This document shows, one piece after another, positions 3,861-26,503 of a stretch of DNA of 64,000 bases (positions are counted from its first letter, which is position 1; the number at the start of each line of letters is the position of its first letter). Under the pieces are notes generated by a model. It was not told where the DNA came from and did no database searches. It worked only from the letters and a program-made list of their open reading frames with translations. Source of the DNA: Thiomicrospira sp. WB1 (lineage in GTDB: Bacteria; Pseudomonadota; Gammaproteobacteria; Thiomicrospirales; Thiomicrospiraceae); NCBI RefSeq assembly GCF_001507535.1, contig NZ_LQBN01000001.1:372001-436000 (forward strand), read 5' to 3'. Position numbers and translations under genes: made by a program.

Positions 3861-4293
3861 GAGGCCCCCGTTGCGATGCCATGGCTTGGAAGCGGCTCAT
3901 TTTGACGTCCACCTGGCGCATCAAGAGGTTGTACGCCATGATGCTGGGGATGGCCACGGCGATGCCGCCGGCGGTGGCTTTCAGCGCCAGTGCCAGTCCG
4001 ACCATGATCTGGCCGGTGTCGATGCTCTGGTTCATGCCCAGATCATAAAACGTCACCAGAATGCCCAGCACTGTCCCCAGCAAGCCCACATATGGGGCAT
4101 TGGCGCCGACGGTCGAGATCAGGGTCAGGTTTTTGGTCAGCGCCACGTTCAGAAGGGCCGGGTGGGTAAAGTCATCCAAGACCAGGTGGCGATAAAACAG
4201 GACGCGTTCAATCGTAAACCAGGTGGCCACAAAAGCCATCAATCCCAATAAAGAAAACACCACTGGGTCAAGATAGGTTTTAAGGAGTTCCAT
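3847..4293 (-). CDS. exbB: ExbB-type proton channel subunit (short form)
   Basis: The 148-residue MotA/TolQ/ExbB protein has three hydrophobic helices: residues 10-30, the segment around APYVGLLGTVLGILVTF (about 85-105), and GLALALKATAGGIAVAIPSIMAYN (about 115-140). It lacks the long N-terminal extension of E. coli ExbB, as is usual for ExbB2-type energisers. It starts at ATG 4293, 43 bases after the tmcA stop. A Fur-like sequence lies 20-38 bases upstream, so iron limitation probably induces the operon. Confidence 0.92.
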   Translation of the reverse strand: MELLKTYLDPVVFSLLGLMAFVATWFTIERVLFYRHLVLDDFTHPALLNVALTKNLTLISTVGANAPYVGLLGTVLGILVTFYDLGMNQSIDTGQIMVGLALALKATAGGIAVAIPSIMAYNLLMRQVDVKMSRFQAMASQRGPHETL

Positions 4294-4312
4294 AATCGGT
4301 ATGCCTGTTGTT

Positions 4313-4331
4313 AAGAATGATTATTGTAATC
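4313..4331 (-). promoter_or_regulatory. Fur-like operator upstream of exbB
   Basis: The minus strand reads GATTACAATAATCATTCTT, matching 14 of 19 positions of the classical GATAATGATAATCATTATC Fur box. It sits just upstream of the exbB start and touches the 3' end of tmcA. Iron-repressed TonB motors are common, so the placement makes biological sense. The match was judged by eye. Confidence 0.55.
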
Positions 4332-4335
4332 AATG

Positions 4336-6552
4336 TTAATTGTGTTTCAAGCCGTTTCTGTTTGCTTGGTTTGTAAAATGCCGGGCCAGCCATGACCGCC
4401 AGGCCTGCTCCAATTGTTTTCGACTGGCGCAGTCGGTGTCTGCCAGTGCCTTGGACCAGGGCTGATTTTGCACCACCTTTTTTAACCAGGCCTGCCCGAG
4501 CGCATCGAGGGGCCAGGTCGGCTGACAAAGCTGGCTCAGGGTCCAGTGGCGCAACGCCAGCGCCAGACTGTCAAAGTCGCGCCCGGCAAGGTAATCCGGC
4601 AGCGCGCAACCGGCCTCAGCCTCATTGCTGGGGGGCGCCAGAGACCAGAGCGAGGTTAAGAGGTCGGCAGGCAGTTCAGCAAAGGGCCCGGCCAGTTGCC
4701 ACGACCATTCGTCATAAAAGCGGTGCCAGCCCTGGGTGGTGATTTTTTTTGCCGGGTCCGACTGGGCATGGACCATCATAACCGAATGCAGGGCGCTGGC
4801 GTGGTCGCGTTTGAATCCAAGGTGCATCGGCATGAAGTTCTGGCGCTGCCAGAAACGAATCAGTTGTGCGGTGGCACCGAAACTGGTGCTGACATAGTCT
4901 TTTTTCTGGGCAGCATCGCTTTGCAGAAACGTGCTGAGCAGGTGGGTGCCCAGTTGCTGGTGCTGACAGTCGGGGGCGATGGCGAGGCGTTGAATGCGCC
5001 AGCCGTGCAGGCTTTGCCAGGTGTTGTCCCAGTTCAGTTGGGCCAGTTTTTGTGCCACCAGGTGCCCTCGAAAGCGACGCCCCGGTTTGAATGAGGGCAG
5101 TCCGCCCTCCGGCAGAGCCCAGAGCACGCCCACAATCTGTTGCCCCTGTTGCAGTGTCCACAGTGACTGCTCGGGCAGTGAGAGCAGACGCATCAGGTCA
5201 TTGGGCCGATGCTGGTAGTGAGACTGACTGAGCAGTGCCATGATCTGGTTGACGGTGTTGGGTTGGGTCAGCAATTCTGCCGTTTGCCAGGTGCGGACGC
5301 TGGGCGCATCGCCTGAACGTCGGGTTTGCTCCGAGAAGGGGGAGGAAGACAGATACAGCCGTTCATTCAGTTGCCGTTCCAGCGGGTCGTTCGGTGCCCA
5401 GCGGATGGGCGTGCTTAGGGTGTGGTGAAACACTCGGTCAAAGCGCTCGCGCAGCCGAGGCAGCAATTTGAGCGCAAAGCCCTGCCCGGACCCTTCGTAG
5501 CCGTCGGTGGTCGTGGCCATCACCACGCGCGGATAGGTGTCGAGCAGCGTTTCGAGCAGAGCCTGTGACAGGTGCGCGGCTTCATCAATCAACAGAACTT
5601 CCGGCGACGGCTGGCGGTTGTGCACCAGGTCATCCGGTGGGCGGTAGTCGAGAAAATGGCGCTGACCGTTTTGCGGGTTGGTCCATTGCAGGCGCGTGTC
5701 AGACAAAAGCTCGCAGTCGGGCTGGCGCTGCAAAAACGACCAGGCCTGGTGAATTTGCGAGGGTCGTGCCGCCGTCAGCGTTAACCGGGTCTTGCCTGTT
5801 TGCCAGAGTCGCCAGATGGCAAGCCCCAATAATGTGGATTTACCGCGTCCCCTCGGTGCGTCAATGATCAGCGGACGTTTGCGATGCCCCAGTGCGACGG
5901 TTTCAATTTTTGACCAGGCCTGTTCCTGTTCCGAGGTCGGTCGAAAGGCTTGGGGCGTCGGTTCGGGATTGGACGGTGTTGTTTGAGCGGGCCAGTCAGG
6001 CAGTTCGCGCAAACAGTCGGTGCCGCTTCCCTGACGAAGGGTCAGCGCCGCTCCCTGTTGCAGCCATTGAGTAAATCCGTCGCCCGGGTCGCTTTGGCCG
6101 TGACCGAGAAACGCCGTCAGGGCCGGGTTGGGCTCGTTGCGCAAGGGAGCCGGCAGTCCGAGAACGCAAACGCCGCCGCCGCGAATCATGCCGCCGACCA
6201 GGGCCAGTGCGTCCGCTTCGATGCCGTCGGCCAGATCCAGCACGGCCAGATCGATTTCCTGCCCCAGTGCCTGTTTGAGCCGTGCACGCGGCATGGCCGT
6301 ACACCCTTTTGGTAAGGCCTCGGGTGCTCGGGCCTCGCTTTCCGTGATCCAGAGCCCTGTTTTATGTGCCTCTTGCCAGGGTTCAAGCAGGGCTTTGATC
6401 AGTGCATGACGCCAGCGTGGCTCTCCCTGGAGTCGGATCAGGGTGCGATGACGGTGCCGCTGCAAATGGGCAAAAAGGGATTGGCGCCATTGTTGAAAAG
6501 GCGTACCATGAAAAGATACATCGTTATCGCATGGTTGGGAGACGTCGGTCAT
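4336..6552 (-). CDS. tmcA: tRNA(Met) cytidine acetyltransferase
   Basis: The 738-residue protein has the TmcA layout: an N-terminal DUF1726-like part, an RNA helicase/ATPase core and a GNAT acetyltransferase domain. The core carries Walker A in IDAPRGRGKSTLLG and Walker B in VLLIDEAAHL, plus MATTTDGYEGSGQGFALK. The GNAT domain includes RLAIAPDCQHQQLGTHLL. The family makes N4-acetylcytidine at the wobble position of elongator tRNA-Met using acetyl-CoA and ATP. It is somewhat longer than E. coli TmcA (671 aa). It carries three copies of the dispersed palindrome (4486, 5740, 5914), each read as Gln-Ala-Trp. Its start codon overlaps that of the divergent gene at 6551. Confidence 0.93.
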   Translation of the reverse strand: MTDVSQPCDNDVSFHGTPFQQWRQSLFAHLQRHRHRTLIRLQGEPRWRHALIKALLEPWQEAHKTGLWITESEARAPEALPKGCTAMPRARLKQALGQEIDLAVLDLADGIEADALALVGGMIRGGGVCVLGLPAPLRNEPNPALTAFLGHGQSDPGDGFTQWLQQGAALTLRQGSGTDCLRELPDWPAQTTPSNPEPTPQAFRPTSEQEQAWSKIETVALGHRKRPLIIDAPRGRGKSTLLGLAIWRLWQTGKTRLTLTAARPSQIHQAWSFLQRQPDCELLSDTRLQWTNPQNGQRHFLDYRPPDDLVHNRQPSPEVLLIDEAAHLSQALLETLLDTYPRVVMATTTDGYEGSGQGFALKLLPRLRERFDRVFHHTLSTPIRWAPNDPLERQLNERLYLSSSPFSEQTRRSGDAPSVRTWQTAELLTQPNTVNQIMALLSQSHYQHRPNDLMRLLSLPEQSLWTLQQGQQIVGVLWALPEGGLPSFKPGRRFRGHLVAQKLAQLNWDNTWQSLHGWRIQRLAIAPDCQHQQLGTHLLSTFLQSDAAQKKDYVSTSFGATAQLIRFWQRQNFMPMHLGFKRDHASALHSVMMVHAQSDPAKKITTQGWHRFYDEWSWQLAGPFAELPADLLTSLWSLAPPSNEAEAGCALPDYLAGRDFDSLALALRHWTLSQLCQPTWPLDALGQAWLKKVVQNQPWSKALADTDCASRKQLEQAWRSWLARHFTNQANRNGLKHN
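4486..4494. repeat. CCAGGCCTG copy inside tmcA (3' region)
   Basis: The copy is one base short on the plus-strand right side; the minus strand reads CAGGCCTGGTTAAAAAAGG. It encodes Gly-Gln-Ala-Trp-Leu-Lys-Lys near the TmcA C-terminus. Confidence 0.8.
5740..5749. repeat. CCAGGCCTGG copy inside tmcA (middle)
   Basis: The core is perfect, but neither flank has the full NAAAA continuation. It encodes His-Gln-Ala-Trp-Ser. Confidence 0.8.
5914..5922. repeat. CCAGGCCTG copy inside tmcA, 174 bases from the previous one
   Basis: The minus strand reads CAGGCCTGGTCAAAAATT, encoding Glu-Gln-Ala-Trp-Ser-Lys just before the ATPase core. Confidence 0.8.
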
Positions 6553-22402: not shown

Positions 22403-24088
22403 TCAGTCGGTGTTTTGCATGGCCTGCCAGGCGGCCTGGCTTTGTTCTTTGATTTCGTGGTTGAGAATGCGATCATTCTGGCTGTAATCCACCGGCACCT
22501 CAATCAGGTGGACGCCGCCCGCTTCGAAACAGGCTTCAATCCGTGGCAGAAAGTCATCGGGTGACTGGATGCGATGGCCGTGGGCGCCATAGCTTTGCGC
22601 GTACTCCACAAAATTGGCATTGCCCACATCCAGCCCAAAATCATCAAAGCCCATGTTGGCCTGTTTCCATTTGATCATGCCAAAGGCGTTGTCATTGAGG
22701 ATGACCACCACCAGATCCAGGTTGAGGCGCACGGCGGTTTCCATTTCCTGCGAGTTCATCATAAAGCCGCCATCCCCGCACACGGCCATGACATGACGCT
22801 CCGGGTAGACCAGTTTGGCGGCAATCGCCGAGGGAAGACCGGCCCCCATGGAAGCGAGGGCGTTGTCGAGCAACACCGTGTTGTGGTGATAGGCCAGATA
22901 ATTGCGCGCAAACCAGATTTTGTAGATGCCATTGTCGAGCGCGATCATGCCGGTGTCGGGCATGTAACGGCGTATGTCGGCCACCACGCGCTGGGGCAAC
23001 ATGGGGAAGCGGTCGTCGGTGGCATGTTTGAGGATGTCTTTGTCGATCAGGCGTTTGGCCTGCATGAAGCAGTCAAAATCCCAGTGGATCTGACGTTCAA
23101 CCCGCTCTTTGATCTGATAAATGCCATTGCCGATGTCGCCGACGACCTCGGCCTGAGGGAAATAAACCGGGTCGATTTCGGCGTTGGTGAAGTTGATATG
23201 AATCACCTTGAAACCGTCGTGCTTCATAAAAAACGGCGGCTTTTCGATCACGTCGTGACCGACATTGATGATCAGGTCTGTGTCATGCAGGGCGCAATGC
23301 ACAAAGTCGTGGTCGGACAGAGCCGCGCATCCCAGGTATAGGTGATGGCGCTCGTCCACGACGCCCTTGCCCATTTGCGTGGTGAAAAAGGGAATCCCGG
23401 TTTTGTCGATGAACTGACGCAGCATTTTGCCCGCGGTCTTGCGGTTGGCGCCCGCGCCGATCAGGATCAACGGGCGTTTGGCCTGTTCGATCAGACTCAC
23501 TGCGGTGCGTACGGCTTTTTCTTCCGCCAGAGGGCGACGGTGCATGCCTTTTTCAATCACCTGCGAATCAGTGGTTTCGCTGGCAATGTCTTCCGGCAGT
23601 TCCAGATGGGTCGCGCCCGGGCGTTCGGTCATGGCCGAACGAAACGCCTCGCGGACCCGGGAGGGAATGTTGTAGCCGCTGTGAATCTGGCAACTGTATT
23701 TGGTGATCGGGTGCATCATGTCGACCACGTCAATGATCTGAAACTGGCCCTGCTTGCTGGTTTTGATCGGTTTTTGGCCCGTGATCATGACCATCGGCAT
23801 GCCACCGAGCTGAGCGTAGGCGGCGGCGGTGACCAGATTGGTGGCGCCGGGCCCCAGCGTGGACAGACACACCCCAGCCATGCCGGTCAGACGTCCGTAG
23901 GTGGCGGCCATGAACCCGGCGGCCTGTTCATGCCGGGTCAGCACCAGTTTGATCGATGAGTTTTTTAACGAGTTGAGCAAGTCCAGATTTTCTTCGCCCG
24001 GGATGGCAAAAATGTATTCCACGCCTTCGGCTTCCAGCGCTTGAACGAACAGATCGGATGCTTTTTGAGTGGGATGTGGCATGGGCAT
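22403..24088 (-). CDS. alsS: Acetolactate synthase, catabolic (AlsS-like) large subunit
   Basis: The 561-residue ThDP enzyme has the activating Glu in TRHEQAAGFMA (about residue 53) and the central FAD-like domain (RPLILIGAGANRKTAG). The ThDP/Mg site is GDGGFMMNSQEMETAVRLN, continuing to LNDNAFGM. It condenses two pyruvates to acetolactate. No small regulatory subunit gene is adjacent, and the sequence looks closer to AlsS than to anabolic IlvB, so an overflow or pH-related role is possible. AGGA precedes the ATG. It lies 28 bases behind the EAL gene on the same strand. Confidence 0.85.
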   Translation of the reverse strand: MPMPHPTQKASDLFVQALEAEGVEYIFAIPGEENLDLLNSLKNSSIKLVLTRHEQAAGFMAATYGRLTGMAGVCLSTLGPGATNLVTAAAYAQLGGMPMVMITGQKPIKTSKQGQFQIIDVVDMMHPITKYSCQIHSGYNIPSRVREAFRSAMTERPGATHLELPEDIASETTDSQVIEKGMHRRPLAEEKAVRTAVSLIEQAKRPLILIGAGANRKTAGKMLRQFIDKTGIPFFTTQMGKGVVDERHHLYLGCAALSDHDFVHCALHDTDLIINVGHDVIEKPPFFMKHDGFKVIHINFTNAEIDPVYFPQAEVVGDIGNGIYQIKERVERQIHWDFDCFMQAKRLIDKDILKHATDDRFPMLPQRVVADIRRYMPDTGMIALDNGIYKIWFARNYLAYHHNTVLLDNALASMGAGLPSAIAAKLVYPERHVMAVCGDGGFMMNSQEMETAVRLNLDLVVVILNDNAFGMIKWKQANMGFDDFGLDVGNANFVEYAQSYGAHGHRIQSPDDFLPRIEACFEAGGVHLIEVPVDYSQNDRILNHEIKEQSQAAWQAMQNTD

Positions 24089-24116: not shown

Positions 24117-26138
24117 TCAGCCGTAATCTTCTTTCAGTTGCGAAAGGCTTAAAGCGCGACTGAAAAAATGTCCTTGAAACAGCAGCTCGCTGGGCATGGC
24201 TCTCAGAATATCGAGCTTTGTTTGGCTGTCAACAAATTCGCAGATCACGGGCTGTAAATCAAGCTTACGTGCCATGTCGGTGATGAATGAGATCATTTGA
24301 CGGCGTTTCTGTTGAGATTCGATGCGATCCAGCATGGTGCCGTCAAGTTTGACCACTTCCACAGTGTTTTGGCTGGCTAAATCAAGCAAGGAGGAAAAGT
24401 TGGAATAACCACTGCCGAAGTCATCAATGGCAAATTTCACGCCGGTTTTGTGTAACTTTTGCAGGGTGGCTTCATGTTTGATCGCTTCATGCTCAGTGAT
24501 TTCAAGAATGAGCGACAGCCCGTTTTGCTGGCAGCAATGGAAAAGGGTGTTGATCCGCTCCAGGGCAGCTGGGTTGCCAAAGCTCGAAGGGTATAAGTTG
24601 ACGCTGATTTCAGGCGTGATACCGCTCAAATGCGGCAGGGCGTCAAGCAATAAAGTCAAGACGATTAAATCCAGTTGCTGGGTGAGTTGGTATTCTTCCA
24701 CCAGGTGGATGAAACGTCCGGCTTCAACCAGCTTGCCGTTCCCAGCGGGCAACCGAACCAAGCATTCAACCAGTTTGCAACGATTGTCAGCGGTAACGAT
24801 GGGTTGAAAATGCAGCTCGAATGCGCCCTTTTCCAGGGCACGTTGCAGACGGTGTAACAATTTCTGGTCCTGTGTGATTTTTTTGGCGTAGTGGTTGAGC
24901 TGAGAATGAGTGATGGGCGACAGGCTGGTGAGTGAGTCATCCGTTGCCAAGTAGCTGAACAAAATGCGAAACTGATCCACGGTGATGAAGGTTTCCAGGT
25001 GGGCCAGCTCAAACCAGTGAATGCGCAGTTCTTTGTCAAGAGGCAGTTCCGTTTCTTGTTCGATCTCGCTCACAACGGCTTGCATTAACTGTGTTTGATT
25101 CAATTTTTCGTCACGGTTGCCAATCAGCACATGCAGGCTGTTTTGAAACGTCTCGCTGATGTAGTCAATGCGAAGCGCTTCAAGCTGATGGAGTAAGGTG
25201 CGTTTGAAGCGTTCCAATAAGGCCTTTTTGTGATGTGAAAACACGCCGGGGCTGCTGACGAGTCCTTCGTGAATGACCAGATAGTAATGCAATGGTTCGA
25301 TCAGTTCGCGTTGGCTGACAAGAAAGCGCAAAAAGTTTTCATAGGCATTCTGTTGGTACTCGGCCAGACAATCATTCAAATAGGTGTCCAACATCAAAAA
25401 GCTCTGCATAACCTGTTCAAAGTGAACCTGTGCCCGGTAATACTCTTTCAGTTTCCAGTGAACGTAGGTGATGTGCGCTTCGTTATGAATCTGTTTGTGC
25501 GTAAGCAATATTTTATGGGCCAGCTCTTCGCGGTCACTGTTGGCTTCAAAAATAACCATTCTTGCTTCGAGGGAATTTAGCCAGTCAGCAAAGGGGCACA
25601 GGGCGTCATCCATTTGGGGCGATGTGTTAAGCGCGCCAAGCAAAAAGTCACACAACTCGAACAGCCATTGCTTGTGCTGTTCCATCATGGGATGGGCAAA
25701 GCGGCGTCGTGTCAGAATGTGTTTTCGCCACTGAGCGACGGAGGCATAGAAAAAACCTTTGGCGATGGCCTCTCTGGCTTTTTTGAGGTTGGTGCTTAGC
25801 GTGGCCGGGTCGACCAGGGATTCCAGCTTCGGTAAGTTGGAAATCATGAAATGTTGGGCCTCGTCCAACAATTCGAAGACGTCGTGAATCGCTACATGAA
25901 AGTCGGTAATCAACCTCTGGCCTTGTGCGTCAAGCCACTCTAAATCGGCCTGGTCGAGCGTGGACAGACAGACTTTCTGCAGCCAGTCACGTTCGCTGCG
26001 CATCAATTGAATCAGATTCTCGGACGTTTTGACGTTGTGCTTGAGTGCCGGGTGCTGCACCAGGTGCCTTTCCAGATTGAGCGTGATTTCGTCAAGCAGG
26101 TGGGACAATCGGTCAGAAGAATCGTTTGAGTGAGACAT
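24117..26138 (-). CDS. EAL-domain c-di-GMP phosphodiesterase with a CZB-like zinc-binding region
   Basis: The 673-residue soluble protein has a C-terminal EAL domain (about 425-670) that keeps catalytic features. ECLVRL stands in the EAL position, followed by SVNLYPSSF (Asn), ITEHEA (Glu), AIDDFGSGYS (paired Asp), VVKLDG (Lys), VICEFV (Glu) and LLFQGHFFS (Gln). It should hydrolyse c-di-GMP. The N-terminal 400 residues are helical. Within them H155, C181 (ALCPFADWL), H214 and H218 (LLTHKQIHNEA) follow the His-Cys-His-x3-His spacing of CZB domains such as that of DgcZ. Zinc control is therefore inferred. GAGGTG precedes the ATG, which overlaps the end of the GGDEF remnant. Confidence 0.8.
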   Translation of the reverse strand: MSHSNDSSDRLSHLLDEITLNLERHLVQHPALKHNVKTSENLIQLMRSERDWLQKVCLSTLDQADLEWLDAQGQRLITDFHVAIHDVFELLDEAQHFMISNLPKLESLVDPATLSTNLKKAREAIAKGFFYASVAQWRKHILTRRRFAHPMMEQHKQWLFELCDFLLGALNTSPQMDDALCPFADWLNSLEARMVIFEANSDREELAHKILLTHKQIHNEAHITYVHWKLKEYYRAQVHFEQVMQSFLMLDTYLNDCLAEYQQNAYENFLRFLVSQRELIEPLHYYLVIHEGLVSSPGVFSHHKKALLERFKRTLLHQLEALRIDYISETFQNSLHVLIGNRDEKLNQTQLMQAVVSEIEQETELPLDKELRIHWFELAHLETFITVDQFRILFSYLATDDSLTSLSPITHSQLNHYAKKITQDQKLLHRLQRALEKGAFELHFQPIVTADNRCKLVECLVRLPAGNGKLVEAGRFIHLVEEYQLTQQLDLIVLTLLLDALPHLSGITPEISVNLYPSSFGNPAALERINTLFHCCQQNGLSLILEITEHEAIKHEATLQKLHKTGVKFAIDDFGSGYSNFSSLLDLASQNTVEVVKLDGTMLDRIESQQKRRQMISFITDMARKLDLQPVICEFVDSQTKLDILRAMPSELLFQGHFFSRALSLSQLKEDYG

Positions 26139-26164: not shown

Positions 26165-26503
26165 TTGATCTGTTTTGGCACACTTCGTTGCGCCTGCTTT
26201 TTCTGCCTGGTAAAGCGCTTGATCCGCTCCTTTCAATCGTTGGTTGATGTTTTTGGATTGAGTTGCGCGACACCTAAGCTGAACCGGACCGATGGATCAC
26301 AGGGTGTTGTGTTAAGGCCAAGGGCTGCAGACGGCTTCAATAGTCGGGCTCCGCCTTGGCTTCGGCATCGAATCCATTTTCAATATTATCATAAACGATT
26401 TTCTGTCCCAGAGGACAATCAGGTTTGCCTGGTTCAAGCGTTGTGTTTCTGATGAGGTGTCTTGGAACCTGTCAAACAATCCGTTTAAAAACCTTAAGAT
26501 CAT
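26165..26503 (-). pseudogene. Remnant of a GGDEF (diguanylate cyclase) domain
   Basis: Reading the minus strand with frame changes recovers the end of a GGDEF domain: CHDLKVFKRIV (GHDxGDxVLKRI-like), then LIVLWDRKSFMIIL, where GGDEF should stand. It continues with RFSLGVAQLNP (FSIGVA-like), a stop, and KGADQALYQAEKAGATKC (ADxALYxAKxxGRN-like). At least two frameshifts and a stop interrupt it, and the catalytic motif is lost. The fragment runs into the start of the EAL gene, suggesting a former GGDEF partner or fusion. Homology was judged by eye. The rest of the 26139-26660 gap shows no other gene. Confidence 0.55.

Follow-up and report, generated by a model that had tools for sequence, protein, structure and literature searches.

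Can the breakdown of c-di-GMP be placed under zinc control? This question is raised by the gene at 24117..26138 of the window, that is, of the whole 64,000-nucleotide stretch of the Thiomicrospira sp. WB1 genome analyzed here. The original prediction placed a CZB region upstream of an intact EAL domain in its product. Sequence, orthologs, profiles and a structural model agree in supporting this layout, and the catalytic residues expected of the EAL domain are kept. In addition, a probable globin fold and a GGDEF-like domain, both overlooked earlier, change what the protein is. We consider it to be a c-di-GMP phosphodiesterase of the cytosol whose activity would be controlled by a predicted zinc site, a reading to which we give a probability of roughly 70% on the basis of sequence comparison and modeling. 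The features are the following.

24117..26138, minus: whole gene of the divergent CZB-EAL protein, an ORF starting from ATG and encoding 673 aa
25749..26120, minus: residues 7-130, putative sensor-globin fold that probably lacks heme (model and sub-threshold Pfam Protoglobin match)
25908..25913, minus: L76-I77, at the proximal heme-His position of relatives (I77 in the His column of a 26-protein alignment)
25350..25703, minus: residues 146-263, CZB-type zinc domain (Pfam, hhalign, orthologs and model)
25674..25676, minus: H155, predicted zinc ligand 1 (invariant in 5/5 rows)
25665..25667, minus: W158, core Trp three residues after ligand 1 (invariant in 5/5 rows; Trp in 24/26 relatives)
25596..25598, minus: C181, predicted zinc ligand 2, perhaps also a redox lid (invariant in 5/5 rows)
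25581..25583, minus: W186 of a CxxGxW-like motif, here CPFADW with Ala replacing Gly (invariant in 5/5 rows)
25497..25499, minus: H214, predicted zinc ligand 3 (invariant in 5/5 rows)
25485..25487, minus: H218, predicted zinc ligand 4 (invariant in 5/5 rows)
24915..25286, minus: residues 285-408, apparent GGDEF-like domain without the GGDEF motif (model only)
24156..24851, minus: residues 430-661, EAL domain (Pfam E 1.3e-43), with E458, N514, E546, D572, D573, K597, E634 and Q655

The CZB-type domain and its predicted zinc site

Residues 1-409 were matched along most of their length in five of the 62 genomes of the family, including the genome under study; a sixth match was confined to the CZB part of a different protein. 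The four orthologs share 34-36% identity with the window protein overall; within residues 1-418 the figure is 26-30%. A single-protein query of the genome contigs yielded no relative, while a subsequent query with an alignment (A2) yielded three of these orthologs on named contigs, from Hydrogenovibrio sp. UBA650, Thiomicrorhabdus cannonii HH3 and Thiomicrorhabdus sp. ZW0627. Plasmids gave no match at E 1e-40. The ortholog of Hydrogenovibrio sp. UBA650 (L044, about 4260-6353) is broken by an in-frame stop that separates its globin region from its CZB domain.

It had been proposed that H155, C181, H214 and H218, with Trp residues nearby, reproduce the ligand order of CZB domains. The residues were found where they had been placed, and H155, W158, C181, W186, H214 and H218 are invariant in all five rows of an alignment comprising the window protein and its four orthologs, one row being partial, as it is the piece of a broken gene that follows the stop. 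When this five-row stretch was compared by hhalign with seven CZB domains, the ligands H, C, H and H fell in register (probability 97.5, E 7.5e-12). A comparison with 31 other CZB domains from non-chemoreceptor proteins gave E 8.8e-13 and a score of 76.6, as against a mean of 11.7 and a maximum of 19.6 for 100 column-shuffled copies. Globin, chemoreceptor and GGDEF profiles compared by hhalign with the same stretch resulted in E 0.24-0.85.

The Pfam search was less clear-cut. PF13682 aligns residues 155-222 with profile positions 1-61 of 64 at E 0.0011, and the alignment opens exactly at H155, matching the His that starts the CZB profile, but the score of 19.7 bits is under the curated cut-off of 29.4. 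Each of the four orthologs gave this match too, with E values from 2.1e-6 to 0.0036 and scores of 18.1-28.5 bits, again below the cut-off. Since all five proteins miss it, we refer to a divergent CZB-type domain rather than to a curated member. The fourth position of the Cys motif is Gly in nearly all CZB domains, according to the accessible part of a published survey (PMC8262984). Here it is Ala184, with Ala in four of the five rows and Gly in L003 only. No different confident domain was found over the CZB stretch, the sole other Pfam match in the N-terminal half being a sub-threshold Protoglobin at 11-105, which lies beside it.

An AlphaFold model of residues 1-280, based on a four-sequence alignment, reached a mean pLDDT of 80.2 and a pTM of 0.77, with parts of residues 1-50 at low confidence. 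Superposition of residues 146-263 on the CZB domain of DgcZ (3t9o) was used in place of distances between the four predicted ligands. The two superpose with a VIA Z of 9.4 and an rmsd of 3.2 over 110 of 120 residues, and residue 155 falls on residue 22, the first ligand of DgcZ; the zinc ligands of DgcZ include His22 and Cys52, as given in the available portion of the source (PMC8262984). However, the unrelated helical chain 6duy scores 8.8, and the VIA notes advise caution with helical bundles whose Z is below about 13. The model alone would not decide the CZB fold. When the N-terminal model was compared with the PDB by Foldseek, none of the 145 listed matches reached E 0.001 or better, and both 3t9o and globins were absent from the best 50 of these 145. 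Searching PDB sequences with a profile built from residues 1-280 gave nothing meaningful (best E 0.055).

A profile of family residues 1-418 was also run against 369 genomes of the class, yielding 16 matches. Apart from the protein's match to itself, they all fall on profile positions 138-238, the CZB stretch, and these 15 all contain a CZB domain according to a profile built without the window family, although one of them, from the genome under study, was itself a row of that checking profile. The full H/C/H/H pattern is present in 12 of the 14 foreign matches. That an unrelated helical bundle resembles CZB by chance would agree with the sub-threshold Pfam score and with the modest structural Z, close to that of an unrelated chain, but it is hardly credible in view of the six invariant residues, the two hhalign comparisons with shuffled copies scoring far lower, and the CZB domain found in each class-wide match. 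Judging from sequence and model together, residues 146-263 are a divergent CZB-type domain with a predicted 3His/1Cys zinc site.

The genome under study contains 23 EAL matches and six CZB matches, and of these six the window CZB alone falls below the Pfam cut-off. Four CZB chemoreceptors (L033, L063, L064 and L066) and one GGDEF-EAL-CZB protein (L065) occur in this genome, although in the part of the survey available species seem to carry either CZB chemoreceptors or CZB cyclases, not both (PMC8262984). The view that CZB domains are known mainly from chemoreceptors and DgcZ also proved too narrow, as an EAL-CZB class accounts for 3.4% of 10,140 CZB sequences in the accessible text of the same survey (PMC8262984).

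The EAL domain, the GGDEF-like region and the probable globin fold

The EAL domain at residues 430-661 is recognized by Pfam with E 1.3e-43 and 149.5 bits, the cut-off being 31.3. E458, N514, E546, D572, D573, K597, E634 and Q655 face identical residues in MorA and are invariant in all five rows, and the model of the domain superposes on the EAL domain of MorA with Z 26.4 and rmsd 2.4. The set E, N, E, DD, K, E and Q corresponds to the catalytic residues expected of EAL enzymes. It could be argued that the domain is a c-di-GMP receptor and not an enzyme, as in LapD, given that LapD is the top-scoring NCBIfam entry (104.1 bits, well short of its cut-off of 1020) and that LapD chains rank high in the PDB comparison. 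Nevertheless, in the LapD rows of our alignment the Glu of the EAL motif is Lys and DDFG is lost, unlike in the window protein. As all five family rows have the full set of eight expected catalytic residues, a receptor role is improbable. From its sequence, the EAL domain is most likely an intact c-di-GMP phosphodiesterase.

Upstream of it, the secondary structure of residues 285-408 follows the strand-helix order expected for a GGDEF domain. GGDEF-EAL tandem structures align over residues 261/265-673, for example 5m3c with 385 residues, as against about 244 for EAL-only entries. A GG[DE]EF motif is absent from the whole protein, and Pfam GGDEF gave no match up to E 10. A degenerate GGDEF domain was also sought by sequence, by comparing residues 263-425 of the five members with GGDEF using hhalign, and this was rejected at E 0.39. 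As the sequence comparison was negative, we keep the GGDEF-like reading as model-based only; in the model, residues 285-408 look like a GGDEF-like domain without the motif.

The N-terminal residues 7-130 model as a sensor-globin fold. They superpose on the AfGcHK globin sensor with VIA Z 11.8 and 11.7, below the warning level of 13 for helical bundles (122 residues aligned at rmsd 2.6 in the better case), on the N-domain of RsbR with Z 10.1 (123 aligned, rmsd 3.7) and on protoglobin with Z 8.0, and many more globins appear among the listed matches. Pfam Protoglobin matches residues 11-105 at E 0.0081 with 16.6 bits under a cut-off of 25, such sub-threshold matches occurring in three of the four full-length family members, and profile comparison of the N-terminal region with heme sensor globins gave E 1.3e-4 with a probability of 53.

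The column of the proximal heme His in the 26-protein alignment is occupied by I77 in the window protein and by K, K and Q in three full-length orthologs; by eye, the fifth family member has Leu-Asn at this position, in the piece before its stop. The non-His assignment rests on this one alignment, as hhalign of the globin region put gaps there. Heme might still be bound through a shifted His, which would make the protein an oxygen sensor like DosC or DosP. Apart from the modeled fold and the sub-threshold Protoglobin matches, such a role could draw on H85, which is His in three of the five members. Yet H85 is Ser in the other two, H81 is not conserved and the proximal column offers no His in any member, so that we regard heme binding of this kind as very improbable. 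Based on its sequence, the globin domain is probably without heme.

Heme, zinc and the proposed control of hydrolysis

In the alignment of 26 globin-CZB relatives, 17 proteins carry the heme His, seven carry the four zinc ligands, two carry neither and none carries both. The two groups were defined from those residues themselves, so the 17/17 and 7/7 are by construction and only the absence of proteins of both types is a finding. The seven four-ligand proteins are four phosphodiesterases of the window protein's family and three cyclases. Nine of the 17 heme-type proteins keep the Cys, His and His of the zinc set and lack the first His. Heme-His cyclases with three-ligand CZB-like sites occur at L142, L143, L144, L147, L152, L155, L159, L160 and L161. 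Two more distant phosphodiesterases of the same layout (L008 and L018) retain only H214 of the four ligands and have no heme His, indicating that zinc is not needed by every protein of this layout.

The 26 rows took in nine of one set of 20 loci (L144, L147, L152, L153, L155, L159, L160, L161 and L163) and five of 21 DosC-like loci. They leave out loci that are flavohaemoglobin-like by eye (L145, L146, L148, L149, L151, L154, L156, L157 and L162), those whose intended frame was not recovered (L150, L158 and L072), the broken gene (L044/L027) and L140/L141 (globin, EAL). A tree of these near relatives calls for two heme/zinc changes, or possibly one, and does not establish that the exchange happened repeatedly and independently. 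With groups chosen in this way and so few changes, the mutual exclusion of heme and zinc is a pattern to test and not a law.

In the cyclase DosC, the middle domain has an essential His223-Lys224 according to the accessible part of the report (PMC5549716). The LWxxHK stretch that holds these residues was set against the Cys motif of CZB by hhalign. The middle domains of DosC-like proteins resemble CZB domains (E 1.1e-6 with 20 rows; E 2e-7 with 11 rows, shuffles reaching a maximum of 16.6), also when only 13 CZB domains from outside the family are used (E 1.4e-4). Directly against the CZB of the window family the comparison was negative (E 0.13), and the link runs only through other CZB domains. 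It also speaks against a kinship that, in the PDB, the DosC-like middle-domain profile matched designed coiled coils (E 6.4e-9) behind DosC itself (4zvc, E 6.8e-14). PF21118 had no match in the window protein up to E 10, and 4zvc was not among the 50 VIA matches listed for the N-terminal model, which excludes nothing. Since the Pfam entry PF21118 carries the name "DosC CZB-like middle domain", we do not claim the kinship of DosC and CZB as new.

We tentatively suggest, although we would not put it at even odds, that sensor globin and CZB may form one old module of cyclases and phosphodiesterases, wired to heme or to zinc and not to both in the proteins seen so far. DosC would then represent heme and cyclase with a dead zinc site, and the window protein its mirror, zinc and phosphodiesterase with a dead heme site. 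A 2026 preprint, in the part available, proposes that CZB domains read redox state via usable zinc (PMC13370339). If CZB zinc reports oxygen or redox in this way, the heme-based and zinc-based proteins may respond to one cue through different chemical means.

Regarding the mechanism, the protein would dimerise through its globin and CZB helical domains, the former having presumably lost heme binding and serving now as a dimer and signal-passing part. Zn2+ bound to H155, C181, H214 and H218 would order the CZB domain. Loss of zinc, through low zinc or through oxidation that lowers usable zinc or attacks C181, would loosen it. The change could then run along the long helices 233-263 and 265-276, cross the GGDEF-like domain and reach the EAL dimer, switching hydrolysis. 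A different possibility is that zinc is permanently bound and structural, holding the dimer, and that the EAL domain responds to another input, either a ligand of the globin or a partner protein. The site is indeed invariant where present, the neighboring globin fold could hold a ligand, and the same-layout relatives L008 and L018 work without the full site. However, in DgcZ, TlpD and McpA the CZB domain is a regulatory zinc/redox sensor, as described in the portions available of two sources (PMC8262984; PMC13370339), and we find a purely structural zinc unlikely, if the most plausible of the alternatives considered.

The least certain point of gating by zinc is its sign. By analogy, we lean slightly, at little better than even odds, toward the zinc-loaded form being the active phosphodiesterase. 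The leaning stems from the shutting of DgcZ by zinc and from the gene order in T. cannonii, where the ortholog (L045:5956-7974) is followed by one ORF and then by a cyclase (L045:9068-10348) whose sensor half is of the same type, all on one strand. That cyclase has 426 aa, a four-ligand CZB domain of 37.0 bits, over the cut-off, and an intact GGDEF, and two further CZB cyclases of the same kind exist in the family (L070 and L071). The ortholog and the cyclase possibly form a matched pair, an arrangement that is understandable if a common signal drives them in opposite directions.

In the window, no CZB cyclase gene adjoins the CZB-EAL gene. Directly upstream, a six-frame search revealed a decayed GGDEF C-terminal tail at about 26174-26296 on the minus strand, with broken frames (…ADQALYQAEKAG…; E 1.1e-4), possibly the remains of a neighboring cyclase. 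A gene that is acetolactate-synthase-like by eye lies 28 bases downstream (22403-24088, minus) on the same strand, and the two genes could share one transcript.

On the synthesis side of c-di-GMP metabolism, control by zinc or redox state is established, through DgcZ. A phosphodiesterase with its CZB domain in the same upstream position would subject the reverse process, breakdown, to a signal of that kind. Globin-CZB proteins with a kept zinc site also provide relatives for the little-understood middle domain of oxygen-sensing cyclases. Given that the essential His-Lys of DosC, as described in the accessible text (PMC5549716), directly follows the LW aligned to the CZB Cys motif, mechanisms proposed for CZB become testable on DosC, and the reverse.

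Comparison with known CZB and globin-coupled systems

Proteins with both CZB and EAL, as here, are known as EAL-CZB and GGDEF-EAL-CZB proteins from the part of the survey available (PMC8262984). A protoglobin-GGDEF-EAL-CZB protein has been described in Acidithiobacillus, judging from the accessible portion of that report (PMC6416229), and AFE_1712, of the EAL-CZB kind, likewise has a protoglobin, comparable to the modeled globin fold of the window protein. The order of domains is where they differ. Among 47 CZB proteins of the family, 31 are chemoreceptors and 16 have EAL, the CZB domain following EAL and a GGDEF motif in all 16. These 47 were picked by eye, with an open frame of 650-760 or at least 950 aa (760-950 aa left out), and each locus was inspected with about 2 kb on either side. 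Nine of the 14 foreign CZB proteins of the class have EAL, always before CZB. The GGDEF motif in the same frame was printed for the 16 family proteins and found by pattern search for the nine of the class. Taken together, CZB follows EAL and the GGDEF motif is present in each of the 25 proteins with both EAL and CZB that were compared here, whereas in the window protein CZB precedes EAL and there is no motif; this contrast covers these 25 proteins.

Very tight zinc binding is typical of CZB domains. They bind zinc by 3His/1Cys and zinc inhibits DgcZ, according to the accessible part of the survey (PMC8262984), and a review of c-di-GMP, in the part available, also gives DgcZ a CZB sensor (PMC8846402). 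DgcZ (YdeH) shares with the window protein a CZB domain upstream of the catalytic domain, the same four ligands and the Trp three residues after the first His, and the model superposes on it. It differs in making c-di-GMP, for which breakdown is predicted here, and in having neither a globin nor a GGDEF-like spacer. The chemoreceptors TlpD and McpA share the 3His/1Cys CZB, which in them sits at the C-terminus. In the accessible literature on CZB with EAL, with globins or with the DosC middle domain, which leaves subscription journals mostly outside, we found no tested CZB phosphodiesterase or heme-less globin-CZB protein.

The globin-coupled diguanylate cyclases DosC, EcGReg and BpeGReg share the order of globin, CZB-like middle domain and catalytic domain. 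DosC has its heme His and an active GGDEF, and the zinc ligands are absent in the five DosC-like rows. By contrast, the window protein has no heme His, four predicted zinc ligands, a motif-less GGDEF-like domain and an intact EAL domain. EAL-CZB proteins were thus already known, and what appears new here, as read from sequence and model, is a CZB domain placed before EAL and the layout of a predicted globin-CZB phosphodiesterase with a zinc site.
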